A stretch of DNA of 64,000 bases, from assembly GCF_000196015.1 (NCBI RefSeq), contig NC_007972.2:62001-126000 (forward strand), written 5' to 3'. Shown here in pieces: positions 12,603-31,775 of this stretch (within the stretch, counting starts at the first letter, position 1; each line of letters starts with the position of its first letter). The position numbers and the translations under genes are program-made. Under the pieces are notes generated by a model. The model was not told where the DNA came from. It saw nothing but the letters and a program-made list of their open reading frames with translations, and ran no database searches. The stretch is from Cupriavidus metallidurans CH34. GTDB lineage: Bacteria > Pseudomonadota > Gammaproteobacteria > Burkholderiales > Burkholderiaceae.

Positions 12603-13118
12603 GAGCTTCTCCTGAAGATCGAGGTCTCTCACCAGAAACAAAAAAAGCCCGCCCCGGTTTGCGCCGGCAGCGAGCTTTGATGTCAGGAACCCGAACTGCC
12701 ACGCCCCTTCCGGGGGCGTGGCACTCGGGGAGCGGCGCACTAGTGCGCGCGGCTCAATGTTGAGGACGTAAAGTCGCCCTCGTGCAGCATGGTCACGCTG
12801 CACAACAACCCTTTTCGCGAACCCACAGGTTCGGCCGCAGGTTCACGGATCGGCTCGACGTCTGCCGTTCTGCCTAGGAGGGGCCTTTGAGAGAGCTCCA
12901 CATGGTCCCAGGCTCGAACGGTGTCCAGCGTGCGCTCATGAAGAGGCACAGCGAGAACGCGTATTACGAGCTGATGAGGGGAAGTGTTCGGCGAAAACAC
13001 TTAGCACAAGAGATATCCACACTGGTAGCCAACCAGTCGGCGCGTGCGCAAATGCACGACTTGAACAAAGAGATGGACTCGCCAGGAGTCAGAGTCGATG
13101 CGTCGATGACGCTAGGTG
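12603..13118 (-). promoter_or_regulatory. long leader with 5' box, hairpins and an internal terminator-like structure
   Basis: This is a gene-free stretch. At 13093-13112 lies a GCGTC-ATC-GACGC hairpin followed by ATCGACT, the 5' box of the shared leader family. Nearer the gene, a GCCACGCCCC/GGGGCGTGGC hairpin (12697-12725) precedes a GC-rich imperfect stem followed by seven T on the minus strand (about 12638-12675). A terminator 40 bp before the start codon suggests attenuation or separation of an upstream transcript. Short ORFs across it on both strands are not convincing. Confidence 0.5.
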
Positions 13119-13251
13119 TGAAAGCATTGTGGCACAGGACTTTCTTTCAAAACTGACGAATGCTCGGCTATTTCGCGTAGCTTTCGAAGTCATGTGGTGT
13201 CCGTTCTTGTCCGACAATTCCGAGTGAGAGAGCATCCGAAAACATGGACAA

Positions 13252-13818
13252 ATGGCCGAACAGGATCCACCCAAGAAGCCCGCTACCGGGCTCAGGCCCA
13301 TCGAGCGCCTGAACAGTGAGGAACGCCTCAGCCGACTGACACCGGCAACGGCATCCGCAACCAACCACGAGTACTGCTCAAAGTTCGCTCGGGACTTCCT
13401 GGACGCGCATTTTTACTTTTGCTCGTCCAAATTTGTCGTCGCGCGCGGCGGTAAGGTCAAGGCACTTGACGAGGCATTCCGAGACGCGGAAGCGTGGTAC
13501 GCCAAAGCCTTGGAGTGGATCGGAAACAAGGATCAGGTCGAGATCCCGCTGTTTTACGAGTCGCGGGAAGTGCAGGTGTCGCATTCGTTTGCCGGTCGCC
13601 TTCTCCGGCTGCTGATGCAATACGACAGGCTCTTCGCGGAAACCCTCTACGGCCTGAACTGCGAATCCATCCCGGCTGACGCGCGCGAGAACACGACGGC
13701 AGTGGCCGCCAAGCGAATCAAGGCCATCCAGCAACTCTGCATCCCGGACACCGACAAGTTCGCTCCGGACGGCACCCTCCTCAACTCTTCCCGGAGCCAG
13801 AACCATGGACATGCGTGA
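13252..13818 (+). CDS. DUF1845 (PFL_4669-type) integrating conjugative element protein
   Basis: This 188-residue protein has the strongly conserved block RLSRLTPATASATNHEYCSKF at residues about 25-45 (abbreviated), then FARDFLDAHFYF, AEAWYAKALEWIGNKDQVEIP and a late IQQLCIPDTDKF. These match my memory of the DUF1845 family found on integrative conjugative elements. The molecular role is not settled. It begins a plus-strand three-gene unit and overlaps the next gene by 14 bp. It is divergent from the 12294-12602 unit. Confidence 0.8.
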   Translation: MAEQDPPKKPATGLRPIERLNSEERLSRLTPATASATNHEYCSKFARDFLDAHFYFCSSKFVVARGGKVKALDEAFRDAEAWYAKALEWIGNKDQVEIPLFYESREVQVSHSFAGRLLRLLMQYDRLFAETLYGLNCESIPADARENTTAVAAKRIKAIQQLCIPDTDKFAPDGTLLNSSRSQNHGHA

Positions 13819-14443
13819 GATCGAGCAGCTGCATGCTCAGTACGCCCAACCCGCCCTGACCATCGACATCTCGCCCTCACCGGCACGCTCGTCGACGCCG
13901 CCGTTGTGGCTTGGCAACGATAATAGTGGCGGCTTTGGTAAGGAAGCATCGGCTCCCGCCGGTGGAAACTTGTCCGTGCCTCCGCGTGCGTTGTGGGCAG
14001 CCGTCTTCGTCGTGGGCGCCGCCGCAATGTTCCTCATTGGCAGTTCCATGGGCAAGCGCGACGCCCGTACCCATAGCTCGGACGGGCCCGCCGCAGCCGT
14101 CACCGCGTCGGAAGCAGGGCCGTCTGCGGCTTCCCAGGCAGAGCCCGAACCGCATTCGCACGAATGGCCCGTGCGCGGCGATGCGAACAATGTCACAAGC
14201 CCAACGCCGGCATCTGGCGCGGCGCCACTGGCGGCAGCAGCTGACACCCCGAGAATCACCCTGCCTTCGCAGGAACCTGTCAAACCGATTGCGCCCGCCC
14301 CGAAGCCAGCCCCCGCGCCTGCAGCGCCTGCAGCGGCGGCCTCCGCGCCGGCGAAAGCCGCAGCGCCCGTCGTGCCTGCGCAGATCGCCCGTCCAGCCGT
14401 ATCGCCGCAAGCCGCCCCCAACCGCGAAATCAAACTGTTCTAA
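13805..14443 (+). CDS. single-pass membrane protein with Pro/Ala-rich periplasmic tail
   Basis: This 212-residue protein has a cytoplasmic N-terminus (about 60 residues), a transmembrane helix near residues 62-81 (ALWAAVFVVGAAAMFLIGSS), and a long low-complexity tail rich in Ala, Pro and Lys. The architecture recalls TonB- or conjugation-pore-associated linker proteins, but no domain proves it. It is translated with DUF1845 (overlap) and is followed by the bactofilin gene after 11 bp. Confidence 0.7.
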   Translation: MDMREIEQLHAQYAQPALTIDISPSPARSSTPPLWLGNDNSGGFGKEASAPAGGNLSVPPRALWAAVFVVGAAAMFLIGSSMGKRDARTHSSDGPAAAVTASEAGPSAASQAEPEPHSHEWPVRGDANNVTSPTPASGAAPLAAAADTPRITLPSQEPVKPIAPAPKPAPAPAAPAAAASAPAKAAAPVVPAQIARPAVSPQAAPNREIKLF

Positions 14444-14454
14444 GAGAGCGTCCC

Positions 14455-14874
14455 ATGACGATGCCAAGTACTCCAACTTTCAGCGTCCTGCGCGCCGGCA
14501 TGAGCATTCACGGCGATCTCGTTTCGGAGGACGGCTTCACCTGCCTCGCCCTCGTTACCGGCAACGTCAGGGCCAGCCACGGCCTGTTGCATATCGGTCG
14601 TGGCGGGGTCGTCCATGGCGACGTGGAAGGCGAACACATCATCATCGACGGCACCGTAGAAGGTGACGTCAAGAGTCGGGTCTCCCTCAAGATCAACGGC
14701 CGCGTGATCGGCCGCATCTTCTACGCCGGGACCATCCGGCTGGGCGAAAACGTGACGCTTGAAGGCAGCTCCATCACTCGGGTGCCCGCTGTGGGCTACG
14801 TGGCGTCCCCCCAAAAGGAGGATGCGCCCGCTATCCACATCGATGACCCGGAGGTCCCCGGTACTGCGGCGTAA
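14455..14874 (+). CDS. bactofilin family polymer-forming protein
   Basis: This 139-residue protein has a central beta-helix of short repeats: GMSIHGDLVSEDGFTCLALV, GNVRASHGLLHIGRGGVVHG, DVEGEHIIIDGTVEGDV, SRVSLKINGRVIGRIFYAGT. This is the bactofilin (DUF583) pattern. Bactofilins polymerise without nucleotide and scaffold membrane-proximal structures. Encoded directly after a membrane protein on a mobile element, it may organise that protein at the membrane. The start could be ATG 14455 or 14461. A convergent terminator follows. Confidence 0.85.
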   Translation: MTMPSTPTFSVLRAGMSIHGDLVSEDGFTCLALVTGNVRASHGLLHIGRGGVVHGDVEGEHIIIDGTVEGDVKSRVSLKINGRVIGRIFYAGTIRLGENVTLEGSSITRVPAVGYVASPQKEDAPAIHIDDPEVPGTAA

Positions 14875-14900
14875 GGAAGGAACATGTTCCTTTCAAAAAA
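14875..14900 (+). repeat. 26-bp repeat copy 1 (palindrome-containing), 3' of bactofilin
   Basis: The segment directly after the bactofilin stop is identical over 26 bp to 62236-62261. It contains the palindrome AAGGAACATGTTCCTT followed by TCAAAAAA. Both copies sit just downstream of a stop codon and upstream of a bidirectional terminator. Confidence 0.8.
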
Positions 14901-14936
14901 CGCGAAAGCGACCGTCTGAGACCACTCTTTCAAAGA

Positions 14937-14977
14937 CAAAAGGCCCGGCAACGTCAGTTGCCGGGCCTTCTTGTTTA
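14937..14977. terminator. bidirectional rho-independent terminator
   Basis: Perfect stem AGGCCCGGCAAC/GTTGCCGGGCCT with a GTCA loop at 14941-14968, flanked by T-rich sequence on both strands. It lies between the convergent bactofilin gene and the 14975-15484 gene. Confidence 0.9.
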
Positions 14978-15484
14978 ATAGACACGCCGCAGCGTCATCA
15001 GCTCCGCTTGCGTGAACACACCTGGGAACGTGATCCAGGGGAAATCGATGGCATTGGCGGGATCCCTGAAGGACAGGTAGGGAAAATCGCCATCCAACTG
15101 TATGCGGAAAATCCGTCGGAGCCGATCCTTGCCTCTGACTTCGTAAAGCACCCCATGTATCAGATCGAAGACAACGGCGCCTTGACTGAAACTAGCTGAC
15201 GCGCCCCGATTCTGTTGGTATCGCAAGTCCATCCACGTATCGTAACTGAGGGTAGTCAGGCGATCGCGGGTCTGGACGAGCCAAGAGGTATATTGCCCGG
15301 TGAACCGCTCCTTCTGCAGGCTGGATAGTTCAATGGTTTGGTGCATGAGTCGGTCCTGTACTCGCTGCACCCTGTTCCCTGCCGTGCTACGGCAAACGTA
15401 CTCGCCCCGTAGCCCGGCGATTGCGGCATCGCCTCCGCGAAACAGCCATCGCGGATAACGTGAATAGAAATCAATGTGGAACAT
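14975..15484 (-). CDS. hypothetical protein
   Basis: From ATG 15484 (MFHIDFYSRYP) this is a 169-residue soluble protein with no signal peptide or metal motif. It contains SLQKERFTGQYTSWLVQTRD and, later, FDLIHGVLYEVRGKDRLRR and ends VFTQAELMTLRRVY. It is flanked by terminators on both sides, so it is probably monocistronic. Unrecognised. Confidence 0.6.
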   Translation of the reverse strand: MFHIDFYSRYPRWLFRGGDAAIAGLRGEYVCRSTAGNRVQRVQDRLMHQTIELSSLQKERFTGQYTSWLVQTRDRLTTLSYDTWMDLRYQQNRGASASFSQGAVVFDLIHGVLYEVRGKDRLRRIFRIQLDGDFPYLSFRDPANAIDFPWITFPGVFTQAELMTLRRVY

Positions 15485-15498
15485 GGCAACGAGCAAAA

Positions 15499-15530
15499 GA
15501 AAAAAGCCCCGGGCTGTGCCGGGGCTTTAA
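15499..15530 (-). terminator. rho-independent terminator after the DUF932 gene
   Basis: AAAGCCCCGG...CCGGGGCTTT stem followed on the minus strand by TTTTTTC, between the DUF932 stop (15614) and the 14975-15484 gene. Confidence 0.85.
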
Positions 15531-15613
15531 GACCTGAAACGACCACTCCATTACCAAACAACGGCAACGGAGCGGCTCGCTTGAGGGCGGATAGAAGAGA
15601 CGCTCGAAGTTGC

Positions 15614-16588
15614 TTATGCAATCTCCGCGAGTTCGAGGGCTGCGTCCCAGGCGCGCTGCTTGAGAAATGCGCCCGCGCCGAACCATGCAGAGTCCAGCCG
15701 ATTACCCGGCGAGCGGGCTCGCTGCTGGTGGTCGACGTACTCGGTGACGCTGTTCACCAAGCCCCAAGCAGTGCCCGATGCAGACTCCAGCGCAGCGCCG
15801 CGGCCGGCCCCGTCGAAAAGACTCAGCACGGCTTTCAGGCCACGCTCGTTCATTCTTGCAGGCGCATCGGCACCATCCCTCGCCGAGGAATAGGTAAAGA
15901 GGCGCTGGAAGAACCGCTCGGACTCGGCCTTGCTGACCTTACGGTCTGCGAGGCTGTGCATGTTGGCCATGAAACCATCCCACGACGAAATGGCAATGCC
16001 GAGCTCTTCTTTCACCGCACGCGGATCGAACTGGCTACGATGCGGCACCTTGACGGCGCCACGATTGCGACCCAACGCGATCTGCAGCGTGTTGTTGCAA
16101 ACCACGCGGACCGAGGTGAACTGCGCCGTGGTCGCCAGCGTGCCATCGCAGGCCGTGGCCAGCAGCAGGTAGCCACGGACCTCGTCACCACCCTTGAGGA
16201 GCGCTGACTGTCCCGTACGGGCGAGCGCCCAGAGCTTGCGACCCTCTTTCAACACGCCTGCAGTCTCGAGCTGATAGCCGCCCACCTGCACGAGGTCTCG
16301 ATAGAACTCCAGGATCTCTGCAGGCTGAACAACCTGGTACCGCTGAGATACCGTCGACAGCGGCTTGCCGTTGTCCGAGCGGTACAGGACCTTCTGCTCG
16401 GGAAACGACTGGATGGGATCCAGGTCATGGGAACCAACGCGGTACATAACGTTGGTCTCCTCAATGCGCCAGTTCATGCCGGCGGCTTCGGCCCAGACTT
16501 CGAGGGGCTGATGCTCCGCCAGGCGGTTGCCCAGACCGTGCCAGGGGGTTGCGCCGGCGTACGCCATGGTTTGAACCAGATGGGACAT
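15614..16588 (-). CDS. DUF932 domain-containing protein
   Basis: This 324-residue protein begins MSHLVQTMAYAGATPWHGLG. The block TPWHGLGNRL, YRSDNGKPLSTVSQRYQVVQPAEIL, and TSVRVVCNNTL are hallmarks of DUF932 (the phage/plasmid-like protein family that includes YfjQ/YafZ). Start ATG 16588 has AGGAG eight bases upstream. The function of the family is unknown to me, but it is common on plasmids and genomic islands. A long leader region lies upstream, and a terminator closes the transcript at 15499-15530. Confidence 0.85.
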   Translation of the reverse strand: MSHLVQTMAYAGATPWHGLGNRLAEHQPLEVWAEAAGMNWRIEETNVMYRVGSHDLDPIQSFPEQKVLYRSDNGKPLSTVSQRYQVVQPAEILEFYRDLVQVGGYQLETAGVLKEGRKLWALARTGQSALLKGGDEVRGYLLLATACDGTLATTAQFTSVRVVCNNTLQIALGRNRGAVKVPHRSQFDPRAVKEELGIAISSWDGFMANMHSLADRKVSKAESERFFQRLFTYSSARDGADAPARMNERGLKAVLSLFDGAGRGAALESASGTAWGLVNSVTEYVDHQQRARSPGNRLDSAWFGAGAFLKQRAWDAALELAEIA

Positions 16589-16920
16589 AAAATTGCTCCT
16601 AAAAATGGGAATGCGAGCGACAGGCTGTGCTGACGCTCGAAGGTGGAAATGAAGGGAGAAAGAAATGGAGACCGTGCTTGTGCGCGGTCGGGGATGCGAC
16701 GCTCGCCATGAACCGCCTACGGCGACAAATGACAACGCGCCGTGTGGCTACAGCAAGGTGGATTGCATGGGGATCGGGAAGATGCCCACGGAGCCGTCCC
16801 GACAGGGAATGCTCCCTGTGGGCGGTTTCAAGAGATGGCCGGCGGTGCCGGCGTAGGGTCGATGCGTCGGAGACGCGGGTAAAACTTTGTTTGGACTGAA
16901 CGTATTCACTGCAAACAAAG
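16589..16920 (-). promoter_or_regulatory. upstream region of DUF932: full leader, tiny uORF and an inverted repeat
   Basis: Gene-free stretch. The 5' box (GCGTC-TCC-GACGC then ATCGACC) is at 16857-16876. It is followed by a GCCGGCACCGCCGGC hairpin and a CCCACAGGGA/TCCCTGTCGGG module ending near 16785. A six-codon ORF (16768-16748, MQSTLL) follows the leader. A second hairpin CGAGCG/CGCTCG lies about 60 nt before the DUF932 start. Upstream of the box, CTTTGTTTG (16885-16893) and CAAACAAAG (16912-16920) form a 9-bp inverted repeat that could be an operator. Confidence 0.55.
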
Positions 16921-16999
16921 CTCTGGTGGTACGGGAAAGCCTATCGCAAGAATCTTGAGCCGAGCCTGCGAAAGCTACGGATTTTTGATAGCCAAATCG

Positions 17000-17036
17000 A
17001 GAATATCCCCCAGCCGGATTCGGCTGGGGGCAAACA
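17000..17036 (-). terminator. probable terminator after the 17038-18588 gene
   Basis: CCCCCAGCCG/CGGCTGGGGG stem with a 4-base loop at 17007-17030, immediately after the stop. The following T-tract is weak (GATATTCTC), so it may act as a processing or rho-assisted site. Confidence 0.6.
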
Positions 17037-17037
17037 A

Positions 17038-18588
17038 TCAAGCGGTCACCTCGGGGGCGATTTGCGCAATGCGTGCCCGCGCATAGTTGAGCGTGCCGTC
17101 CTTTGCACGCAACGGCCGCGACATGCGCTTCACCGGATCATAGATACGGTAGCGCGTGACATTGCCCCGACGCTCGTCGACGAGCTGGGTAAAGCCGGCC
17201 TCGATGCAGAAATCGACGTACTCGCGTCCGTTCATTTGCTGACCGGTCTCGAGCCTGTAGGTCGTGCTTTCCGCCAACGATATTGCATCGGCCATCGAAC
17301 GTTCAGCGCGCTTGCGCGCTTTGTCGATGGCTTCATGTGCTTCCCATTGCGCTTGCTCGTCTACTGAGAACCCACATAGCTCGAAAAGCCGACGACGGCG
17401 CTCTGCCGCGCTGCATTGCAAGACATCGACACCGAGTTCGTCACGCAGAGCGCGCTTAGAGTCGGTATTCCAGTCCTTGGGGCCGTCGAAGATGTGGAGT
17501 ACTGCCGCAACATTGCGCTCCATGACCGCGAGCGCCACCCGGTTGGCCCAATCGTATCCATAACCGGCCCGGTAGATTGCGGCCGCCTTGGTCTGACGAT
17601 CAAACTCGCGCTGGCTGATTTTCTGCCCTTCGCGCTCCTCAGCCGCCTTTTTCATGGCTTCCTGGTACTGCCGCTCGCTTATCAGACCGTGGATTCGCGC
17701 CGCCAGTTTGGTGGCCGGCCGTGCATTCTCACCTTCGAGGGGCTTGGGCGTGGGCATCGTCCGCGGAGGAACAATTCCGGCCGCGAAAAGAGCGTCATCG
17801 ACAGCCACGTAGCCACCGTCACTCGGCACGTTACGCACTGCTGCGAGCAGTCTGGGAGCGTTGTGCGGCGTGATCTCCAGCTTCTCCCCGCGCATGACCT
17901 GGCAGAGCGCTTGCAGCACGCTGGACGACAGGGCTCCTCGCAGGGCCGGCACTTCGATCAAGGGCTGCATCCAGAACTCGGACCGCGCATGGTGCGGATT
18001 GTCGCGGTAGGTATTGATGATGCAATCCCGCACCTTCTCTCCGCGCATCAGCGCGTAGGCGACATGTACCTCATGCCGGCAGTTGGGACTCGCGGCCGGG
18101 TGATACAGCGGGCCATTCGTGCCATAGCCGAAGCGGCGGACAAATTCACCGCAAACGAAGCCTGCGATATCGAACGCTCCGCGATCCTCAAACAGATCTA
18201 CCGTCTGGAACAGCGGACCTGCATCGTCGTGAGACATGTCGATAGCCTCCTCGGGGAAATACGCCAAGCGGCCAGCGGCCACCACGGCGCCCCAGGCGGC
18301 GCGGCTCATCTCGTGTGGGCGCAGGATCTTGCCGCCGACACGAACGATAAACCGATCCACCTCGTCGAGGATCATCGAAAGGATGGCCCGCCGCGTGCCA
18401 ACGGGTCGAACGGCAAAGTTTCCGCCGGCCAGTCGAACCACTGGAATTGCGCCGCGTTCGACATGGCGCACTGCGATATCTTCGACGCGTGGCGCTGCCT
18501 TCCCGTCTCTATCTTCATTCAGGTACTGCAGCACGCCGGCGAGCGTGGTGCGATGCTCGGCGCGTTGGCCGATATGAATCACGTACAT
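17038..18588 (-). CDS. large hypothetical plasmid protein
   Basis: This 516-residue soluble protein begins MYVIHIGQRAEHRTTLAGVL. It has no signal peptide or membrane segment. A mid-region contains charged helices (EAMKKAAEEREGQKISQREF), and the C-terminal third has GQQMNGREYVDFCIEAGFTQ. Start ATG 18588 is chosen because it follows a short structured leader whose GCTCC/GGAGC stem contains the ribosome-binding site; the longer frame would translate the preceding gene's tail. It probably belongs to one transcript with the two small paralogous genes upstream. Unrecognised family. Confidence 0.7.
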   Translation of the reverse strand: MYVIHIGQRAEHRTTLAGVLQYLNEDRDGKAAPRVEDIAVRHVERGAIPVVRLAGGNFAVRPVGTRRAILSMILDEVDRFIVRVGGKILRPHEMSRAAWGAVVAAGRLAYFPEEAIDMSHDDAGPLFQTVDLFEDRGAFDIAGFVCGEFVRRFGYGTNGPLYHPAASPNCRHEVHVAYALMRGEKVRDCIINTYRDNPHHARSEFWMQPLIEVPALRGALSSSVLQALCQVMRGEKLEITPHNAPRLLAAVRNVPSDGGYVAVDDALFAAGIVPPRTMPTPKPLEGENARPATKLAARIHGLISERQYQEAMKKAAEEREGQKISQREFDRQTKAAAIYRAGYGYDWANRVALAVMERNVAAVLHIFDGPKDWNTDSKRALRDELGVDVLQCSAAERRRRLFELCGFSVDEQAQWEAHEAIDKARKRAERSMADAISLAESTTYRLETGQQMNGREYVDFCIEAGFTQLVDERRGNVTRYRIYDPVKRMSRPLRAKDGTLNYARARIAQIAPEVTA

Positions 18589-18652
18589 GGGGAGCTCCAG
18601 GACGGAGCATGCCCCTTCGGGGACATGCCCCGAATGGGTTGGAAAAGAATGA
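18589..18652 (-). promoter_or_regulatory. short intra-operon structured leader
   Basis: Minus strand: CAACCCA then TTCGGGG/CCCCGAA hairpin with outer CCC/GGG, then GCTCC/GGAGC, TCCCC and ATG. It fills the gap between two co-oriented genes and lacks the 5' box. Confidence 0.65.
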
Positions 18653-20183: not shown

Positions 20184-20567
20184 TCAACCGCGACGCCCGG
20201 CCACCACGCGAAGCGTGGCGACGAGGTTCGCGTAGCCCTGGTCGCTGGCCAACGATTCGACGGCGACAGCGTTTTCACGGCCGCCGGTCAAATCTTCACG
20301 GTTCCGACAAGTCCGGTACGACATGAGCACACCGCCTTCGGCGCCGGCGGGATGCTTGATCTCGACGAGCAACGAATCGGTGTGCAGCGCGAACACGTCG
20401 ACCTCGCGGCGACGCTGACGATGCTCCCTGATCGTGAAATCGCGTGGGCGCAACGCCATGTCTCCGGCGACGCGGCGCAGAACGCGGCAAGCATCACGAC
20501 GGATCTCCTGGCATGCCGCGGTGTTGGTCGACGGATGCCGACGGGTAAAGGATTTGGGGATTTTCAT
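20184..20567 (-). CDS. hypothetical basic protein
   Basis: This 127-residue protein begins MKIPKSFTRRHPSTNTAACQ. It is rich in Arg (RRDACRVLRRVAGD, REHRQRRREVDVF) with a VFALHTDSLLVEIKHPAGAE block. The E-I-K within a beta strand context faintly resembles a nuclease core, but this is too weak to call. A full leader of the shared family precedes it. The gap of 12 bp to the next gene suggests cotranscription. Confidence 0.55.
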   Translation of the reverse strand: MKIPKSFTRRHPSTNTAACQEIRRDACRVLRRVAGDMALRPRDFTIREHRQRRREVDVFALHTDSLLVEIKHPAGAEGGVLMSYRTCRNREDLTGGRENAVAVESLASDQGYANLVATLRVVAGRRG

Positions 20568-20690
20568 GGATATCCTGGATAAGGACGGGACATCCTTCCC
20601 CACGGGACGGTTGTCCCAGCTGGGTTGGTAGTCCGGCGATGCCGGACATGGTCGATGCGTCGAAGACGCGGGTGAAAGCGACTTGCCCAA
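20568..20690 (-). promoter_or_regulatory. full structured 5' leader (shared family)
   Basis: Minus strand: GCGTC-TTC-GACGC plus ATCGACC at 20650-20669, TCCGGCATCGCCGGA hairpin, CCAACCCA, GGGAC/GTCCC hairpin with TGGGG, then a GGAT-rich segment before ATG. Upstream lie two further tandem hairpins made of CAAGCC/GGCTTG repeats (20685-20735). No clear -10 is visible for this copy. Confidence 0.65.
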
Positions 20691-20789: not shown

Positions 20790-21263
20790 TTAACGCGTAA
20801 GACGGTAGCCGTTACCCGACGACACGAGGTACAGCTGCTCGCCAGTCGTGAACTGCTGATCGGCATCCTGCGTGAGAACGATCTGGCTGCCATTCTCCTT
20901 GCGGACAACGACCTCGACGCCTGCACGCCGGTTGAGCTGCGAGGCAACGCCCTGCGCCAGCACCGCGGAAACGGTACCGGACATCGCACCTGCGACATAG
21001 CGGCCATTGCCGCCGCCAATCACACGCGCGCCGAGCAATCCACCGACCAACGCGCCGACAACACCGGGGATACCGCTGTTGGCCGACGAGTAGCCGTCAC
21101 TGTCGATGATCGTCACCTGACGGAGACGAATGACAGTGACGACTTCCGCGGAACCCGTGCGGAGCGCTTCCGAACTGCGATAGCTGTTCGGAGACGTCTG
21201 CTGAGCTGCGCAGCCGGTGAAGATGATCGAAGCAAGGAAAAGCGAAGCGATACGCTTGAACAT
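20790..21263 (-). CDS. SlyB/Pcp-like glycine-zipper outer-membrane lipoprotein
   Basis: From ATG 21263 this is a 157-residue protein with a lipoprotein signal (MFKRIASLFLASIIFTGCAA; lipobox FTGC). The middle holds a glycine-zipper membrane segment (IPGVVGALVGGLLGARVIGG) and a beta-rich tail (VVVRKENGSQIVLTQDADQQF) as in SlyB/Pcp proteins. It would be anchored in the outer membrane and may stabilise the envelope. It has its own promoter and full leader. Confidence 0.8.
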   Translation of the reverse strand: MFKRIASLFLASIIFTGCAAQQTSPNSYRSSEALRTGSAEVVTVIRLRQVTIIDSDGYSSANSGIPGVVGALVGGLLGARVIGGGNGRYVAGAMSGTVSAVLAQGVASQLNRRAGVEVVVRKENGSQIVLTQDADQQFTTGEQLYLVSSGNGYRLTR

Positions 21264-21420
21264 GATGGCCTCTTCAAAAAAATAAGGGCCAACATGCCTA
21301 CGGGCAGGGTGGCCCGTAGGTGGGAGAAAAACAGATGTCCGGCTATACAACCGGAAAGGTCGATGCGTCTGAGACGCGGTAGGTGGAGCAATCTTAGCAG
21401 CGTTGCCGTGCTTTCAGCAA
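21264..21420 (-). promoter_or_regulatory. sigma70-like promoter and full structured leader of the lipoprotein gene
   Basis: Minus strand: -35 TTGCTG (21415-21420), 18-bp spacer, -10 TAAGAT (21391-21396), then 12 bp to the GCGTC-TCA-GACGC hairpin plus ATCGACC (21359-21378). A TCCGG/CCGGA hairpin, CTGTTTTTCTCCCA and a perfect CCTACGGGC/GCCCGTAGG hairpin follow. The transcript would start a few bases before the first hairpin. Confidence 0.75.
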
Positions 21421-21744: not shown

Positions 21745-22449
21745 TCAGATGCGGCCGATCTCGCGGGCCAGCTGGTCGAGAATGGCTTCGACAATGCGCT
21801 CGCGCCGGGTCCGCTGCGCCAGCGCATTGAACGCGAGGTCGGGACTGAGATGCGCGAGCGCATCCACAATGCCAATCCAGGTCTCCGCGACCACAGCGAT
21901 ACGCACAACGTTGGCGCCAACCGGCGCCTTGCTGGCAATGCAGAGCAGCGCGTCGAAGCGCGAGAGGTCGAGCGCGTGCTTAAGCTCCATGCGCTGTTCG
22001 ACATAGCTAGCGATGAGGAAGGAGCAGAACGCAGCAAGACCGACGTCGGCATCGGATGCCAGCGCCTGAATCCATTCCAGCGCGGCAGGCCGCACGTTCA
22101 CGTAAAGCGAGTCGCCGCGCGGCACGCGGTCAACTTTGGCGAGCTGCCAGCCCCAGTCCGGTCCGATGGCATAGAACTGCACGAGCTTTCCGTCGAGGAC
22201 CTGCGGCACGGCGTCGAACCACGTTGCACCGTCTTGCGCGGTCTCCACAAAGGCATTCCGGCTTTCGTCGAAAGCCAGGCCGCGTACGTACTCGCACAAC
22301 TGGAGACCTTCGGTCCGCGTGAACAATGGGGAGCGCAGCGGTTGCCATGGCTTCCCATTGGAGAATGCGATCGCGACCAGCGATTTGGGTAGCCTTAGAG
22401 ACGCCACGAAGATCTGGCGAAAGGCTGCGGGCGATTGAACTTGACTCAT
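21745..22449 (-). CDS. hypothetical protein
   Basis: This 234-residue soluble protein begins MSQVQSPAAFRQIFVASLRL. It has a beta-rich first half (LVQFYAIGPDWGWQLAKVDR) and a helical second half (WIQALASDADVGLAAFCSF). Start ATG 22449 is fixed by the leader, in which GTGCTCC/GGAGCAC occludes the ribosome-binding site four bases before ATG. It has its own promoter. Unrecognised family. Confidence 0.6.
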   Translation of the reverse strand: MSQVQSPAAFRQIFVASLRLPKSLVAIAFSNGKPWQPLRSPLFTRTEGLQLCEYVRGLAFDESRNAFVETAQDGATWFDAVPQVLDGKLVQFYAIGPDWGWQLAKVDRVPRGDSLYVNVRPAALEWIQALASDADVGLAAFCSFLIASYVEQRMELKHALDLSRFDALLCIASKAPVGANVVRIAVVAETWIGIVDALAHLSPDLAFNALAQRTRRERIVEAILDQLAREIGRI

Positions 22450-22594
22450 GAACGTGCTCCAAAAGATGTGGAGCACTCCGCCAGGGCAGGTGCCCCAACG
22501 GGATGAGAAAGATATGTGGCCGCGGCCACTGAGTCGATGCGCCTAAGGCGCGAGGTGTGGCTGCATAGTAGCAGCCAGGCACGCGCGATTGCAA
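22450..22594 (-). promoter_or_regulatory. sigma70-like promoter and full structured leader
   Basis: Minus strand: -35 TTGCAA (22589-22594), 18-bp spacer, -10 TACTAT (22565-22570), 13 bp, GCGCC-TTA-GGCGC plus ATCGACT (22532-22551), GTGGCCGCGGCCAC hairpin, ATCTTTCTCATCCC tract, GGGGC/GCCCT hairpin, GTGCTCC/GGAGCAC over the ribosome-binding site. Confidence 0.8.
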
Positions 22595-26271: not shown

Positions 26272-26281
26272 GATGGGCTCC

Positions 26282-26749
26282 TTAAAGCAGGGATGAGAGA
26301 TCGGTGCCCGAGGGCACCATGGTGCCCGGTTCGGCCTTGGCTTCGGTCTGCGTGTCGCCCTTCGTAGTGCTACCGCGTACCGCAACCTCTCCCGCATCGT
26401 TGTCATCGTCATCGTTGCCATCGCTCGAACCCGATCCCGACGCCGCCTTGGCCAGTGCCTTCGTCGCTTTGGACGACTGCGTGGTCTTGGCTGCATCGAG
26501 AATCGACTTCGTTGCTTCGGCCTGCTCCGCCAGAGAGCGATGCGCTGCCGTGACGCTCGTGACCGCGTTGGCAAACTCGGCGTCCAGCTCTGCCGCCGTT
26601 GCGGACAACACGACTGGCGTCGTCAGCGCGGCATCTGCGGCATTCTTGATAACGGGCATGACGACAGCCGACATGGTGTCGCCTTGCATCGTGAGCGTGA
26701 TCACGACCTTGTCGCTCGCGCGAACGAGCGGTACCAATTCAGTGAACAT
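26282..26749 (-). CDS. PRTRC system protein E
   Basis: This 155-residue protein begins MFTELVPLVRASDKVVITLT. The N-terminal 70 residues are an ordered alpha/beta domain. The rest is a low-complexity acidic tail (SGSGSSDGNDDDDNDAGE) ending GTDLSSLL. Start ATG 26749 follows a leader-like segment with a GGGCGC/GGCGCC hairpin and ATCTGTCTTTCC. PRTRC E is known to me only as a cassette member of unknown function. Confidence 0.8.
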   Translation of the reverse strand: MFTELVPLVRASDKVVITLTMQGDTMSAVVMPVIKNAADAALTTPVVLSATAAELDAEFANAVTSVTAAHRSLAEQAEATKSILDAAKTTQSSKATKALAKAASGSGSSDGNDDDDNDAGEVAVRGSTTKGDTQTEAKAEPGTMVPSGTDLSSLL

Positions 26750-26825
26750 GGTGAGTCCTTTGGGGAAATGGAAAGACAGATAGGCGCCATGAGCGCCCAT
26801 CCAAACTGTGAAGAGTGAAGTTCGG

Positions 26826-28511
26826 TCAGAAGCCCAAAACCTTGGGCACCTTCCCGGTGTAGTCGAAACCGTCCACCGCCAGCAGGCCGGCGATGACTTC
26901 GGGCTTCGATTTGTTGAACAGCTTGGCAAAGCCGTCGCCCAGCGCTTTGCGGATACCCAACTCGTCGGCGAGAACCTTCATCTCCGACTTGGTGAGCATC
27001 TCGAGGAAGTCCTGCGCCTTCTGCAGGTTCCAGTGCAGCTTGAGATCGAGCTTGTGATAACGGCACAGGTCACGAAGACTCGTCACGTCCATCCCGTCGA
27101 TCGCCGCCACCGTCGTTGCAACAGTCAGCTGCTGGCGCTTGCCAGGGTCCAGCGCCTGTACCGCCGTCAGACAGCCGGGGAACGTAGAAGACGCCTTCTG
27201 CTCGGTAAGCTTCTCGAAGAACTTGCCCATCGTGTCGCCAGTGATGGTACGTGCAAGCCCGTGCAAGGCAATCGAGATCAGGTACGCGTTGGCGAGTTCG
27301 GCATTCTGCGCGACTTCCTTGCGCAGCGCCTTGCGCCAGACATCGGTCCGATAGGCTTTCACCTTCTCGGATTCACTGATCGACGTAACGGGCTTCTCTG
27401 CAGGTGCAGTGGCCTTGCCCGCCGCACCCTTGGCGGTAGCAGGCTTGTCGGAAGAGGAGCTGCTGCTCGCGGGCGCTTGCGTGGCCGCTTTCGCGTCGCG
27501 CTCGGCCTTGATGCGAGCCGCGACCTTCTGCGAATTGCAGGCGGTATCGAAGCACTGGCCGCCATAGACCTTGCCGAGAGAGCCCGGGAGGCCACTGACG
27601 GCGGCGCCAAAATTCTGGCAGCCGTGGCACGCCTTGGCTTGTTCCTCACCAACGCCAGTGGGACCCTCGACCAGCAGTTGAACGCGGGTCTCGTTGTCCC
27701 CCGCGCGCACGATCCGAATGACCTGGTACTCGTCCTTCAGCCCATAGGCAATGCCTTCGAGCTTCCGGTCGGTCTTCTCCGTATAGCATGCGCGATTGGT
27801 ACAGTTGCCCGTCGCGATCGCCTCGCCGAACATCTCCGTCTGCAACGAAGAATTGTGCTGGCAGGTCGTGCACTGCGTCTTCTCGAAGATGGCCTTCTCG
27901 AGGCTGCACGCGGCGGCCTCGATGGTCTTCTTCAATTCCGCAACTGCTTTCTTCTCGCTCACGATGACGGGCAGCAGCTTATCTTGCGTGCCCTTCTCGA
28001 GCGTCGCCAGCAGCTCGGCATGCCCCAGCTGGATCGTGCGGGTATTGAGCGCCTCCAGAACGGATTCGCTGCAGTTCATCAGCGCGAGGCGCTTGTCGAG
28101 CGTCGATCGCGACCAGCCGAGCTGACGAGCCGCCTCATCGCGGTCCCCCTGCAGCCAGCCCACAATCTTGGCCGCTTGCACTGCCTCCTCGGAAGGAGCC
28201 ATGTCGGCACGCTGGATATTCTCGATGAGCGCAAAGCTATCTGCTTCGGCATCGGTCATGGCCTTGATGATGACAGGAACGGGATAGTCTTCGCCGTGGG
28301 CCGAAAGCGCTGCGCGGTAGCGGCGTTCACCTGCAACTACCTCGTACTCGCGGCCGCTCTCGTCTTCTTCCACGGGGCGAATCAGGAGGGACTGAAGCAC
28401 GCCATTGACCCGGACGGACTCGGTGAGCTCGGCCATTTCGGCAGGATCGAAGTACTTGCGCGGATTACGGCCAGGACGGATCTTGCCAACAACTACGGTC
28501 GGAGTTTGCAT
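26826..28511 (-). CDS. PRTRC system ParB family protein
   Basis: This 561-residue protein has the ParB/Spo0J core in its first 200 residues: VGKIRPGRNPRKYF, the CTPase-type VAGERRYRAA box, ALIENIQRADM and a helix-turn-helix near EAARQLGWSRSTLDKRLALM. It then carries two Cys clusters typical of the PRTRC ParB type (CTTCQHN...CTNRAC and CHGCQNF...CFDTAC) and an Ala/Ser-rich linker (about 360-400). ParB proteins bind parS-like sites and load onto DNA for segregation. No ParA is in the window. Start ATG 28511 is fixed by its promoter and leader. Confidence 0.9.
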   Translation of the reverse strand: MQTPTVVVGKIRPGRNPRKYFDPAEMAELTESVRVNGVLQSLLIRPVEEDESGREYEVVAGERRYRAALSAHGEDYPVPVIIKAMTDAEADSFALIENIQRADMAPSEEAVQAAKIVGWLQGDRDEAARQLGWSRSTLDKRLALMNCSESVLEALNTRTIQLGHAELLATLEKGTQDKLLPVIVSEKKAVAELKKTIEAAACSLEKAIFEKTQCTTCQHNSSLQTEMFGEAIATGNCTNRACYTEKTDRKLEGIAYGLKDEYQVIRIVRAGDNETRVQLLVEGPTGVGEEQAKACHGCQNFGAAVSGLPGSLGKVYGGQCFDTACNSQKVAARIKAERDAKAATQAPASSSSSSDKPATAKGAAGKATAPAEKPVTSISESEKVKAYRTDVWRKALRKEVAQNAELANAYLISIALHGLARTITGDTMGKFFEKLTEQKASSTFPGCLTAVQALDPGKRQQLTVATTVAAIDGMDVTSLRDLCRYHKLDLKLHWNLQKAQDFLEMLTKSEMKVLADELGIRKALGDGFAKLFNKSKPEVIAGLLAVDGFDYTGKVPKVLGF

Positions 28512-28705
28512 TTTCTGGGTTCTCGCGAAATGGGGAACCCGTTGCCGCACCGGGAACGTGGTTCCCGATGGGATGGAAGGATGGACTACCAGGCTATGCT
28601 GGCCGGCCACCGTACTGCAAAAGCTGGCACCGGAAGGTGCGGGGTCGATGCGTCTAGGACGCGGTAGGTGCCGAGAAGAATACCTAAATTTTGTTTAACA
28701 GGCAA
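28512..28705 (-). promoter_or_regulatory. sigma70-like promoter and full structured leader of the PRTRC operon
   Basis: Minus strand: -35 TTGCCT (28700-28705), 17-bp spacer, -10 TATTCT (28677-28682), 14 bp, GCGTC-CTA-GACGC plus ATCGACC (28643-28662), GCACCTTCCGGTGC hairpin, GGCCGGCC, CATCCTTCCATCCCA, CGGGAAC/GTTCCCG hairpin, then GGGTTC/GAACCC just before ATG. It drives the seven-gene PRTRC set. Confidence 0.8.
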
Positions 28706-28929
28706 TCGCTAAAGTGCCCCAGCAATACCGGCCCCGGTAGCAGATCTCGCAGGATCGCAGTCGCACCTCCAAATCTGTGACTCCGAGGCCCTACGCCATC
28801 CTGGGCGAGCCCTATCCCATCGACGCTATGTTCGGTAACACACGGAAGCCGACCCATGGGCCTCATTATTTTCCAGCCACGACGTAAACTTTTCCGACAT
28901 AAACAAGATTTCATAAACTAGCCGCTCCT
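28706..28929. other. gene-free spacer between divergent units
   Basis: This stretch separates the PRTRC promoter from the plus-strand gene at 28930. Short frames across it on the minus strand have no start context or recognisable product. The composition becomes visibly more AT-rich toward 28900. Confidence 0.5.
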
Positions 28930-29124
28930 ATGGACGTTAATGCTCTCACAATGGCGCATCAAGTCATCACCATGCTCGAATTCTACCGAGCACATTACGC
29001 GGACTCACAGGTCTTTGTCGATAAAAAACGAGAACTCGTAATGTCTCTAAAGAATATTTCCTCTACGGGCGTCGATGACGCCCCATTGATATCGGCGTTC
29101 TCTGATGCAATAGACAAGCTGTAA
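28930..29124 (+). CDS. small hypothetical protein of atypical composition
   Basis: This 64-residue helical protein begins MDVNALTMAHQVITMLEFYR. It lies with its neighbour 29180-29578 in a visibly AT-richer patch inside GC-rich sequence and runs against the surrounding minus-strand genes, which suggests recent acquisition. No good Shine-Dalgarno is seen. Unrecognised. Confidence 0.5.
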   Translation: MDVNALTMAHQVITMLEFYRAHYADSQVFVDKKRELVMSLKNISSTGVDDAPLISAFSDAIDKL

Positions 29125-29179
29125 TTGAGGCTTTCAGCAATACCATTAGCATCTACCGATGCTCCTGAGAGATTATAAA

Positions 29180-29578
29180 ATGACGAAACCTTTCACGCTC
29201 TTTAATGCAGCCGCGCTTGGTAAGTCTCAACCAATTGTTGATGTCGGCGAGCCGGAACCGGTCGTTGGAATTGCGACAGATGACTATATCATTGCGCTCG
29301 CGAACCTAACTAACATAGTCGTGAGTCTTCAGCGAATGAAGGTGGGAAATAATCCGTGGACGGCCTTCACACCCATGGCTCCAATAGGAAGAACATGCAG
29401 CTACGGCGACCCAAAAAAATGTGCTGACGAGGGAAAGTACCAGAAAGTCACCGTTATCGGATGCGGAGGGGCTAGTTTCTCCATCGAGCTTCGGAATCAC
29501 GACGGCGAAGGCGCAGTGTGGGATGGGTTGTATGCTGACTGTCAGTATGGCGGCGGCGTTTTATTTCTCGTCCCATGA
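29180..29578 (+). CDS. hypothetical protein of atypical composition
   Basis: From ATG 29180 (MTKPFTLFNAAALGKSQ) this is a 132-residue protein. Its second half has a Cys pair (TCSYGDPKKC), then VTVIGCGGASFSIELRNHDG and a final DCQYGGGVLFLVP. It lacks a signal peptide. It shares the AT-rich patch and orientation with the gene at 28930, and the two may form a two-gene accessory unit. Function unknown. Confidence 0.55.
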   Translation: MTKPFTLFNAAALGKSQPIVDVGEPEPVVGIATDDYIIALANLTNIVVSLQRMKVGNNPWTAFTPMAPIGRTCSYGDPKKCADEGKYQKVTVIGCGGASFSIELRNHDGEGAVWDGLYADCQYGGGVLFLVP

Positions 29579-29654
29579 ATTCGCCTTAAAGACCGCGAGG
29601 ACCTCTGTCGACCGAACCTGTAATCTTCACTAGTATCGGACTAGATTAAGATTC

Positions 29655-29690
29655 AAAAAAAAAGCCCCTCACAAGGAGGGGCTGGTAGGA
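29655..29690 (-). terminator. rho-independent terminator downstream of the methylase-like gene
   Basis: AGCCCCTCC-TTGT-GAGGGGCT-type stem at 29663-29683 followed by nine T on the minus strand. It lies about 115 bp past the methylase stop codon. Confidence 0.8.
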
Positions 29691-29802
29691 ACGGGTCCAT
29701 CTGAGAGAGCCTGTAGCGGGGTCGTGCTACAGAGATCATCTTATCGTCGAACCCGCTCCCCGCAGGAGGCGAAAGCTCGCCAATTTTGCGGGTGTTTTGC
29801 GG

Positions 29803-30696
29803 TTAGAACAGCGCGAGCTGGTCGTCAGGCACAAGGACCCGCAGTGCCGCTGCGGGAATGGGTGTTCCGTCAGCGCGAAACGCCTCGTCGGCCGCACGGT
29901 CGCCGACCTCCGTCTCATTCACGCGCTTCGCACTCTGGAGCAGCTCCCGCATGGCCTCGGCCCTCCGGCGAAACCTGAGCTTCTCGCCCCAGCCTCCCAC
30001 GACATGTGCCGGCGTGAACCAGGTAGACCAGGCCTCCACCGACAGCGCGTTGCCGTGAATGACGATCGCGGGGATGTGCAGCAGCGCCAACTGGACATAC
30101 GTCATGTGCACGCACCGCGGATCGATATCGATGCACGTGGCGTGCATCGTCTGCTGGTAATTGTGCCCCGCATCGTGCAGTGCATCGGCACAGGCAATCA
30201 CCATGCCGCCCGCGCCACACGCTGGCTCGCTGAGCGTCACGAAACCATCGCGCTGGACGAACGGAGCACCATCTCCTATGTTCATTCGCGCCATGAGCCG
30301 CGAAACGGGGTACGGTGTGAAGAACTGCCCCGCCTTGTCGTTACCGAGCTCAAGCATCATGTACGTCTGACCAAGGACATCGGCCAGACCGTCGCCGTTG
30401 GGCACCCATCCCTGCACCAAATCCTCGAACGTCTGGACCAGCGCCCCAAACATCTGTGGGAAGCGCTCGCGATCCACGCGCTCGTATCGCCTGACGATCT
30501 CTTTGTACCGTTTCTCACGAGCCTCGGCGTGGTGGCGATCAACGGAATTGCTGATGGACAGGGCTGCGATCTCCACGAAATCGGAGAACACCTCGTGTAC
30601 CGAGTATCGGTGGCCGAACTGCTTGAAGAGCGACAGCAAGACCTTGTGCGGCTCGCTAGCACTGCCTTCGAACCTCCGTTTGGCGGCGCGACTCAT
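29803..30696 (-). CDS. N-6 DNA methylase-like protein (HsdM-type, short)
   Basis: This 297-residue protein has an HsdM-like core: FTPYPVSRLMARM, the SAM-binding motif EPACGAGGMVIACAD, and a later VIHGNALSVEAW. The catalytic NPPY/F motif expected after this last segment is not visible; the frame goes to FTPAHVVGGWGEKLRF. No specificity or restriction subunit is nearby. It may be an orphan methylase with an unusual catalytic motif or a SAM-binding protein without methylase activity. Preceded by a leader-like segment; cotranscription with 30838-31317 is plausible. Confidence 0.75.
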   Translation of the reverse strand: MSRAAKRRFEGSASEPHKVLLSLFKQFGHRYSVHEVFSDFVEIAALSISNSVDRHHAEAREKRYKEIVRRYERVDRERFPQMFGALVQTFEDLVQGWVPNGDGLADVLGQTYMMLELGNDKAGQFFTPYPVSRLMARMNIGDGAPFVQRDGFVTLSEPACGAGGMVIACADALHDAGHNYQQTMHATCIDIDPRCVHMTYVQLALLHIPAIVIHGNALSVEAWSTWFTPAHVVGGWGEKLRFRRRAEAMRELLQSAKRVNETEVGDRAADEAFRADGTPIPAAALRVLVPDDQLALF

Positions 30697-30837
30697 CGTA
30701 ACCGCTCACGCAGAAATGGGTACGCGGCCGAGGTGGGACTGGCAATCTGTGTATGTATTCGGGGCATTTCAATCGGCTTTTTTTGGCCGGGGAAACGCAC
30801 CCTCCGGGACGAATCCCGGCAGGGTTGAAGAACTGAA
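30697..30837 (-). promoter_or_regulatory. structured leader before the methylase-like gene
   Basis: Minus strand just after the upstream stop: CTTCAACCC, GCCGGGATTCGTCCCGG-A-GGG hairpin, then GCGTTTCCCCGGCC and an AAAAAAAGCC tract. About 100 nt of further sequence precede ATG 30696. Confidence 0.5.
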
Positions 30838-31317
30838 TTAGTGCAGACGGTAAGCCGTCGTGACAGGCGTGAAGCCCATGGCCCACCATTGGGCGATGGG
30901 ATGGTTGGGAAACTGCGGGATCTGGCCGCTCCGGAACACGTCCGGTACCAGCGCGAGTGCTTCCGGGCGGGCCATTACAGTCGCCCGCCATTTCCCTTGA
31001 AGCTCGAGCCAGGTCAGCTCGGCGCGTGCGATGTGGTCCCACTGCATCGGGAGCATGGCCTCGTCGAAGCGCTTCGCTCCCTCGGCCGTCATGACGGCTA
31101 CGACTTCGTGGTAGCGCCCGAGTTCGTGCGGAAAGCCGCAACGAACGAATCGGAGATCCTCGGGATCGGGGTTATCGAAGATCCGCTGCAGCTGGCGGAT
31201 GTACACGGCGCACTCGCGCCGCGAGCGCTCGCTGTAATCTTCGTGGCCAACCTGTGCGCACGATTCCTCCGCCGGCACGGGGCCGACTTCGATGCGGATA
31301 GTTCTGGGGTAAGACAT
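30838..31317 (-). CDS. hypothetical protein, paralogue of 31787-32311
   Basis: This 159-residue protein begins MSYPRTIRIEVGPVPAEESC. It shares with the gene two positions upstream a common order: a helix ending IxxLxRxF, P.P..LRF, a G.Y.VVAV strand, an AMLPMQWD/AVPTRWD motif and an aromatic C-terminal part (QWWAMGFTPVTTAYRLH). A short leader whose GCGTTTCC/GGAAACGC stem covers the ribosome-binding site precedes it. Function unknown. Confidence 0.6.
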   Translation of the reverse strand: MSYPRTIRIEVGPVPAEESCAQVGHEDYSERSRRECAVYIRQLQRIFDNPDPEDLRFVRCGFPHELGRYHEVVAVMTAEGAKRFDEAMLPMQWDHIARAELTWLELQGKWRATVMARPEALALVPDVFRSGQIPQFPNHPIAQWWAMGFTPVTTAYRLH

Positions 31318-31375
31318 GGTGCGTTTCCTATGCGGATATGGGAAACGCCCCGGCCGGGACGTTTCCCGGTTAGGA
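31318..31375 (-). promoter_or_regulatory. short intra-operon structured leader
   Basis: Minus strand: CTCCTAACC, CCGGGAAACGTCCCGG hairpin plus GGGG, then an 8-bp GCGTTTCC/GGAAACGC stem ending three bases before ATG 31317. Confidence 0.65.
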
Positions 31376-31420
31376 GGGGGGCCGCGCGCGAGCCCGGTAA
31401 AGGACTGCGCGCGGCGATGC

Positions 31421-31624
31421 TCAGGCCAGATGGCCAGAGAGATGCGAGAACTTCGACAACACCCAGGCGGCGGCCACCACGAGGACGGCCGCTGCGAGAG
31501 AGGTCAGTTGGAAGTACAGCAGTGCGAGGCTTGCAGTCGTCACGATGAAGAACAGCGCGGCGAACAGGATCACGACCAGCGCAGCAACGGCGATGGCGGT
31601 CTCACGGGTCTCGATAACAGGCAT
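31421..31624 (-). CDS. 67-residue two-helix membrane protein
   Basis: Begins MPVIETRETAIAVAALVVIL. Two hydrophobic segments (about residues 10-30 and 33-56) almost fill the protein. Start ATG 31624 sits one base after an 8-bp stem that encloses the GGAG. It is the first gene after a promoter and full leader. Function unknown. Confidence 0.65.
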   Translation of the reverse strand: MPVIETRETAIAVAALVVILFAALFFIVTTASLALLYFQLTSLAAAVLVVAAAWVLSKFSHLSGHLA

Positions 31625-31775
31625 GATGGCTCCAGAGAAAGTGGAGCCATGACCCATAGGGGACAAAAGCCCCAATGGGTGGAAGAAAAGCAGATGGCCG
31701 GTACGCCGGCAGGTGTCGATGCGCAGTAGCGCGGAGAATCGGACGAATCTTACCTCGCCTTCCGACAACCTACAA
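31625..31775 (-). promoter_or_regulatory. sigma70-like promoter and full structured leader
   Basis: Minus strand: -35 TTGTAG (31770-31775), 17-bp spacer, -10 TAAGAT (31747-31752), 14 bp, GCGC-TACT-GCGC plus ATCGACA (31713-31732), GCCGGCGTACCGGC hairpin, CTGCTTTTCTTCC, ACCCAT-TGGGG..CCCCT-ATGGGT nested hairpin, ATGGCTCC/GGAGCCAT stem, ATG. This is the clearest copy of the full architecture. Confidence 0.85.

Follow-up and report, generated by a model that had tools for sequence, protein, structure and literature searches.

We propose, with moderate confidence, that a short hairpin box repeated on the minus strand of plasmid pMOL28 of Cupriavidus metallidurans CH34 is the 5' module of structured translational-control leaders, which stand on backbone genes of PRTRC-bearing Burkholderiaceae plasmids. 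The analysis started from a 64,000-nt stretch of this plasmid, hereafter the window. In the proposed leader, the box forms a first hairpin (HP1) followed by AUCGAC, and most leaders continue with three further hairpins (HP2, HP3 and HP4), the last of which pairs the Shine-Dalgarno sequence (SD) just before the start codon. What can be read directly from the sequence is the modules, their conservation, compensatory changes, and complementarity between two strands, x and y, of HP3 and HP4. The original prediction had described the boxes as a repeat located at the start of many transcripts of a PRTRC-associated region. The repeat itself was borne out, but the prediction had missed that the box is the first module of a longer leader, with an SD-hiding hairpin that has an alternative partner, and that copies exist outside the window.

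All eight of the minus-strand boxes claimed for the window were found in place (first bases at 31732, 28662, 22551, 21377, 20669, 16876, 13112 and 9408), except that the copy given as starting at 21378 starts at 21377. Seven of them fit GCGYCNNNGRCGCATCGAC exactly and the eighth, at 31732, reads GCGC-TACT-GCGC-AUCGAC; the stem variants with a constant AUCGAC were as described. In the whole 6.9-Mb genome, the exact pattern matched eight times, seven of them inside the window and all on one strand of one 171-kb contig (C2, on which the coordinate is the window position plus 62000), against no match for the reversed control pattern. When three mismatches were allowed, the window gave 13 matches against a shuffle mean of 7.75; 7 of 100 shuffles reached as many, and since this count is not unusual, the box signal resides in the exact form. 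Furthermore, a hairpin scan of the plasmid in pieces, judged by eye, revealed three more pMOL28 boxes outside the window, at NC_006525 40062, 46208 and 42736. The box at 46208 corresponds to C2:130851 and is the eighth exact match of the genome, and that at 42736 has a different stem and lies directly before the primase gene.

The exact pattern was also searched for in 60 Cupriavidus genomes, where it gave 244 matches against 3 for the reversed control (sums of the listed counts). Of these genomes, 36 had at least one match and 32 had three or more. PRTRC ParB scored over the cut-off in 30 of the genomes, 29 of which have three or more boxes; the only one below three (G006) is an assembly in about 730 contigs. 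Among the other 30 genomes, three have three or more boxes (G014, G037 and G054). Outside the family, PRTRC ParB is rare, with one other genome among 369 in a sample of the class and nine outside the genus among 399 in a sample of the order. The boxes had been assigned to a PRTRC-associated region; they do lie there, but are not confined to it, since copies also precede the primase gene and an integrase gene, and occur on the SbcCD side. In a sample of the family, 156 of 398 genomes had a match, and many of the single matches there may be chance. Exact-pattern scans of wider contigs and of viral contigs matched at least 117 and at least 120 stretches, respectively, many of which must be chance; among the former, 26 places passed a filter that required a perfect stem and allowed no more than one G among the 8 nt preceding the box. 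Filtered places judged real by eye came from Cupriavidus, Paraburkholderia, Burkholderia and Caballeronia, and L097 also looks real. The leaders themselves were compared in a set of 95, to which pMOL28 contributed through the window and L244, and 19 genomes through 20 stretches chosen for their box clusters. Boxes too close to the end of a stretch were left out, the collecting pattern admitted only GCGYC-type and GCGC-type boxes, and the 95 leaders were sorted into 27 groups by their downstream sequence.

The stem variants support the view that HP1 is an RNA helix, since they stay paired while AUCGAC is kept. GCGTC/GACGC formed the stem in 84 of the 95 leaders, GCGC/GCGC in 7 and GCGCC/GGCGC in 4. 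The loop was of 3 nt in 82 leaders and of 4 nt in 13, and 7 of those 13 were the GCGC/GCGC boxes. G is scarce both within the loops of 3 nt, where it makes up 9 of 246 letters, and in the few nucleotides that precede the hairpin. A search with the primase leader gave relatives in 28 of the 60 genomes; 29 of 30 primase loci, several of them identical, had a hairpin and then AUCGAC ahead of the start codon, in 27 cases with the form GCCTG-NNN-CAGGC. A pattern search for this primase form in 60 genomes across the family gave two matches. We aligned 15 HP1 variants with GCGTC/GACGC, GCGCC/GGCGC and primase GCCTG/CAGGC stems, picked to display the variation so that the counts are an illustration and not a sample; 100% of the cells were paired and both sides changed in three of the five pairs. 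Sliding the pairing partners destroyed the pairing in this alignment, and three of five measures, including the covariation score, were reached by none of 500 shuffles. The earlier claim of an RNA element thus gains support from the paired stem variants, the both-side changes and the loop length of 3 or 4. Because AUCGA stood in both search patterns, its constancy is partly due to selection. In a parB leader from another family of the order (G505), CTCAC-CCT-GTGAG occupies the corresponding place with another flank, and it was the sole such hairpin in a narrow scan of 40 kb there. In one leader only (L317, near 9941, minus strand), GCGTCACACCTC is tandemly duplicated just before HP1.

The sequence behind the box is structured as well. 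The 130 nt after the box fold more strongly than their dinucleotide shuffles (mean z -3.1, with z of -2 or below in 22 of 27 groups), compared with a mean z of -0.9 and 4 of 27 groups for a control stretch further on. HP2, defined as a stem of at least 5 bp within 40 nt after AUCGAC, was present in 85 of the 95 leaders, as against a mean of 23.6 and a maximum of 33 in 20 shuffled sets. A loose finder called HP4, which pairs the SD just before the ATG, in 72 of the 95 leaders; a cut-off of -4 kcal/mol leaves 68, and removal of nine calls judged doubtful leaves 59. The arms of HP4 differ wholly between groups, as in GTGCTCCA/TGGAGCAC, GGGTTCCC/GAGAACCC and GCGATTGCC/GGCAATCGT, and since such unrelated sequences nonetheless pair, the HP4 pairing is supported.

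HP3 and HP4 are linked by complementarity of their 5' arms: x, in HP3, can pair with y, in HP4, the latter being the anti-SD strand. A second, SD-free pairing therefore exists. We compared x:y energies within and between 17 groups, with y defined from HP4 alone and the whole preceding stretch taken as the possible partner. The own pairings averaged -14.0 kcal/mol and the crossed ones -10.0 kcal/mol, and none of 20,000 permutations was as good. The result was the same, with none of 20,000 permutations, when a doubtful HP4 representative was replaced (-13.7 versus -9.9 kcal/mol) and when five groups presumed to be counterparts of others were dropped to leave 12. For the complete leader, the HP4-enforced fold is predicted to beat the x:y fold by 3.4-12.9 kcal/mol in all 17 groups; for an RNA cut after y, forcing x:y is predicted to cost at most 3 kcal/mol in 14 of 17. 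These fold energies suggest a leader that is closed by default, with a second state near in energy only while the RNA is being made or if HP3 or HP4 is disturbed. We consider it probable that translation is off by default; the chances that the leader truly switches between the two pairings appear about even. By computation, many of the leaders show both an SD hairpin before the start codon and a mutually exclusive partner for the anti-SD strand, two of the features of an anti-SD switch, which would also need a signal that shifts the leader from one fold to the other. In PRTRC parB leaders of other families, x:y and the SD hairpin were visible by eye in six of nine (L331, L355, L356, L357, L358 and L360) and were not visible by eye in L359, L361 and L362.

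All of the window features described here lie on the minus strand. The leader of the 31732 box (HP1 at 31715-31732, with a promoter-like -35/-10 pair upstream) has its HP3 core, which holds x, at 31659-31675, and its HP4 (ATGGCTCCA...TGGAGCCAT), which hides the SD and is followed by ATG, at 31620-31650. The RefSeq start of HXI70_RS00385, one of eight box-proximal starts, falls inside this HP3 (NC_006525 83402, window position about 31657); a start after HP4, as in the twin RefSeq record, fits the leader better. In the PRTRC parB leader, HP1 (28644-28662) is followed by HP2 (28627-28640), HP3 (28545-28572; x GGGAACC) and HP4 (28509-28540), which hides the SD in GAGAACCC and ends at the parB ATG. 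The leader of a hypothetical-protein gene consists of a GCGCC/GGCGC box (22533-22551), HP3 (22478-22501; x TGGGGCAC) and HP4 (22447-22476; GTGCTCCA...TGGAGCAC with the SD, then ATG). That of a membrane protein gene, whose product has a glycine-zipper match just below the Pfam cut-off, comprises HP1 (21359-21377), HP3 (21297-21320; x GGGCC, read from the sequence and the same group) and HP4 (21261-21291; TGGCC...GGCCA with the SD, then ATG). Two leaders, with no sigma70 promoter seen and a hairpin directly upstream, have the same arrangement: HP1 at 20651-20669, HP3 at 20598-20619 (x TGGGACA) and HP4 at 20565-20595 (GGATGTCC...GGATATCC with the SD, then ATG), and a GCGCC/GGCGC box at 9390-9408, HP3 at 9335-9358 (x GGGTGC) and HP4 at 9303-9333 (GCACTCCG...TGGAGTGC with the SD, then ATG). 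The box at 16858-16876, also with a hairpin directly upstream, opens the long leader of a DUF932/TIGR03299 gene, in which an HP3-like hairpin (CCCACAGGGA...TCCCTGTCGGG) lies at 16798-16822 and no HP4 was found. In addition, HP3/HP4 modules without HP1 stand before two operon-internal genes, at 31315-31370 before the open reading frame starting at 31317 (x GGGAAACGTC : y GGCGTTTCCC) and at 18586-18635 before that starting at 18588 (x CGGGGCA : y TGCTCCG).

We then considered the 5' ends of the leaders. A sigma70-like promoter pair had been claimed for four window copies, and indeed the boxes at 31732, 28662, 22551 and 21377 have one with a spacer of 17-18 bp at 13-14 nt upstream of HP1, matching 7-8 of the 12 consensus bases; the other four window copies score 4-6. 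In the set of 95 leaders, a -35/-10 pair scoring at least 8 of 12 stands at the expected place in 28, compared with 0-2 at seven shifted places. For 19 of the 27 groups, the first leader has a -10-like hexamer whose first base lies 18-21 nt ahead of HP1. For the copies with promoters, it is very likely that the transcripts start about 7 nt before HP1. Start-site maps of strain CH34 have been published (PMC9045368, PMC7563307); in the portions of these texts available to us, strong RpoD motifs are given for 177 of 468 start sites of the two plasmids (PMC9045368), and no transcript start at a box is named in either.

The box also heads stretches of other kinds. The copy at 13094-13112 opens a stretch that contains sbcD RNA (RF01757) at 12687-12841, which begins 271 nt 3' of the box start. 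Likewise, the distance from the box start to the start of sbcD RNA is 269-274 nt in all 17 pairs that were compared, of which one has an imperfect stem. sbcD RNA scored over the cut-off in 30 of the 60 genomes, and at least three further sbcD RNAs (G027:C35, G021:C32 and G021:C34) have no exact-pattern box at that distance. The portion of PMC2864571 available to us lists sbcD as a Burkholderiales motif. This orphan RNA may be part of a longer tagged leader.

A second kind of stretch is opened by the box at C2:130851. It is 116-121 nt long (about 118 nt), ends in a terminator-like hairpin and a T run, and was found on pMOL28 and in 15 of 16 further stretches fetched by the letters GCGTCCCCGACGC (L342 has another). 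Because the stretches were fetched for the same letters, the loop is constant through selection. In the middle hairpin, the sequence varies between copies. We regard this HP1-headed, terminator-ended RNA of about 118 nt as a candidate small RNA. Its L340 copy contains a weak match to the SorX small RNA family (24.9 bits, cut-off 46.6). Directly 3' of the terminator, for example in L334, L337 and L344, the DNA GTGGACCGTGTCGGATAGTGAGGACACCGGACACC... is strongly conserved and looks non-coding; it is possibly an origin or recombination site. On the minus strand of L321 (6642-6725) and of L324 (8670-8753), some 160 nt upstream of a box, there is a match to the Burkholderia small RNA ncS54 (RF02871) that scores exactly at the gathering threshold; this small RNA is treated in the accessible part of PMC5688073.

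Taken together, the leaders may work as follows. Each tagged transcript would start with a short unstructured tail, HP1 and AUCGACC, and most mRNAs would continue with HP2, HP3 and HP4, the last hiding the SD directly before the ATG, so that the default fold would keep translation off. Alternatively, y could pair with x, the 5' arm of HP3, and the SD would then be free. As long as the SD strand has yet to be transcribed, x:y would be near the best fold in energy; in the finished leader the closed fold would win, to be opened by some event. HP1-AUCGACC would serve as a common recognition tag for one trans-acting factor, of the host or of the plasmid, that sets stability or translation, and the HP1-headed RNA of about 118 nt would be a member or decoy of the same network. 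Recognition by a common factor is favoured because HP1 and AUCGAC keep their sequence while the other stems change, and we would put a tag for a specific factor on an equal footing with its opposite. The fullest form of the model is a plasmid RNA regulon of about 10 HP1-AUCGACC transcripts, in which one factor sets the anti-SD switch in most leaders and the 118-nt RNA tunes the factor; this form is tentative and, on balance, unlikely. If it were true, ParB, the ubiquitin-like PRTRC cassette, the primase, SbcCD and other backbone genes would be switched on together at translation.

Several observations weigh against the proposed leader family. For HP1, the stems hardly vary within single orthologous groups, and two of the measures applied to the 15 variants, the both-side-change pairs and the further pair types, were reached by 208 and 427 of the 500 shuffles, so that the covariation evidence rests on comparison between groups. 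Folded separately, HP2 (mean z -1.2; 5 of 27 groups) and HP3-HP4 (mean z -1.8; 10 of 27) were weakly better than shuffles. No SD hairpin was found in 23 of the 95 leaders, which include all 13 of the group holding the sbcD RNA leader and both leaders of group 11, that of the DUF932 copy in the window. With a similar finder, -6 kcal/mol was reached at 4 of 8 box-proximal annotated starts of pMOL28 and at 14 of 156 others. A loose scan of 155 kb on both strands flagged 26 switch-like places, 5 with a box and 21 without; given this excess, the boxless places are probably mostly chance. The x:y permutation test was not significant for the nine parB leaders of other families (3351 of 40,000). No candidate trans factor was found, and Pfam scans of 30 plasmid proteins, a part of the plasmid, gave no obvious RNA-binding regulator, the nucleic-acid binders among them being SSB, KfrA-like and HU-like proteins.

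The promoters add to these points. In 8 of the 27 groups (3, 4, 6, 7, 10, 11, 16 and 23) the first leader has no -10-like hexamer at the usual place; in group 4, the hexamer is present in two leaders from another genus. According to the part of PMC7563307 open to us, a TAnAAT promoter consensus was found for pMOL30 and not found for pMOL28. Seven of the eight groups were inspected upstream and have instead an imperfect hairpin that ends a few nucleotides before HP1, then TTTYACC. The same holds for three of the four window copies without a visible sigma70 promoter (20669, 16876 and 9408), where the hairpin could be a terminator, a processing site or an unusual promoter. The promoter-less boxes may thus mark processed rather than primary 5' ends.

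The main rival explanation is that HP1 is a plain 5' stabiliser of the ompA type, which protects the RNA against 5'-end-dependent decay, and that HP2-HP4 are separate from it. Such a role would suit a hairpin that heads switch leaders, the sbcD RNA stretch and the terminator-ended RNA alike and that keeps a fixed distance to the promoter where one is seen. However, a plain stabiliser needs no fixed sequence, and here GCGTC/GACGC recurs in 84 of 95 leaders and the primase variant, too, retains AUCGAC (AUCGA partly by selection), while the other leader stems vary freely. The predicted tail of 4-7 nt before HP1 is also longer than is usual for 5' stabilisers. We hold this explanation to be unlikely. 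Rather improbable, in our view, is a pulse from the nascent RNA that needs no trans factor, in which x:y forms first, the SD is briefly free and the leader then refolds to the closed state. The predicted energies agree with such a course, x:y lying within 3 kcal/mol of the best fold in 14 of 17 cut leaders and 3.4-12.9 kcal/mol above it when the leader is finished, but they describe equilibrium folds and not kinetics, and the constant sequence of HP1 would be left unexplained. It is very unlikely that the box acts as a DNA operator to which a plasmid repressor in the style of KorB or ParB binds downstream of the promoter: the dyad symmetry, the several copies near promoters on one plasmid and the nearby PRTRC ParB would fit it, but the half-site spacing varies (3 or 4 nt, with GCGC-N4-GCGC), the primase copies alter the half-sites while conserving the pairing, all pMOL28 copies found share one orientation with an asymmetric AUCGAC tail, and RNA structure follows the box. 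Just as remote is a processive-antitermination site of the put, ops or LoaP type for readthrough of GC-rich leaders, since, although HP1 stands at the start of transcripts rich in GC hairpins, one of them with an internal terminator-like hairpin (L321), the genome has a single NusG-family gene at the cut-off, on another contig and none on the plasmid, and an ordinary terminator seems to end the HP1-headed small RNA.

The window is part of the pMOL28 record NC_006525.1, and the same stretch occurs in NZ_CP046330.1 with 100% identity over the 14.7 kb compared. The minus-strand genes around the boxes include the PRTRC cassette (ParB, E, C, F, B, A and ThiF), of which protein C matches prokaryotic ubiquitin (PF14454) in a Pfam scan, and an N-6 DNA methylase. 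Further genes near the boxes encode a DNA repair exonuclease and an AAA ATPase, which we read as SbcD-like and SbcC-like, a DUF932 protein and unnamed proteins. On the same backbone, the gene at 4025-5905 (minus strand) encodes a DndC-like protein that scores under the DndC cut-off and is annotated as a phosphoadenosine phosphosulfate reductase family protein.

Finally, we compared the leaders with known systems. No described element of this form had been known to the original prediction, and indeed no Rfam 15 match covered a box in what was searched, namely the window, L238, L243, L319, L321, L324 and L332 at the gathering score, together with nine small loci for which E values up to 1 were admitted. 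In the window, a loose-threshold search gave weak matches only, besides sbcD RNA at 12841-12687. The literature on PRTRC, sbcD RNA and SD-sequestering plasmid leaders, in those portions of the texts that were accessible and with most subscription journals outside the search, contained no description of such leaders, and the best reading is that the HP1-tagged leader family is undescribed. Two kinds of known system were considered and set aside. RfaH/LoaP-type antitermination would call for a NusG paralogue, and the one NusG-family match in the genome, with none on the plasmid, leaves it without one. For FinO/ProQ-bound RNA, the genome gave no PF04352 match at E 0.001.

The nearest neighbour is sbcD RNA, which shares with the box the same plasmids, the same strand and a near-constant distance; however, it is a separate structure of 155 nt, its match excludes the box, and it has no match in the other box leaders of the window. 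In erm-type attenuators and riboswitches, the anti-SD strand likewise has two mutually exclusive partners, one of which is the SD, but the HP1 leaders occur in several copies per plasmid with unrelated arm sequences. No sequence-conserved aptamer was seen between HP1 and the switch, and none of 68 leaders had a closed upstream open reading frame of at least 3 codons with an SD, as a leader peptide of the erm or cat type would have; an ATG precedes the start codon in 34 of the 68. The 5' stabilising hairpins of the ompA type resemble HP1 in lying near the (predicted) 5' end, and differ from it in that both the stem and the 3' flank are conserved in sequence in HP1. Like the CsrB-type sponge or decoy RNAs, the candidate small RNA carries a hairpin common to many mRNAs, but it has one copy of the hairpin, not many, and no binding protein is known for it. 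The usual view is that large plasmids rely on DNA-binding repressors for the coordination of their backbone genes. If our proposal is correct, a sequence-tagged RNA leader with an SD switch, together with a small RNA bearing the same tag, would be a different way to coordinate them, and the leaders would give testable handles on the poorly understood, ubiquitin-like PRTRC cassette.

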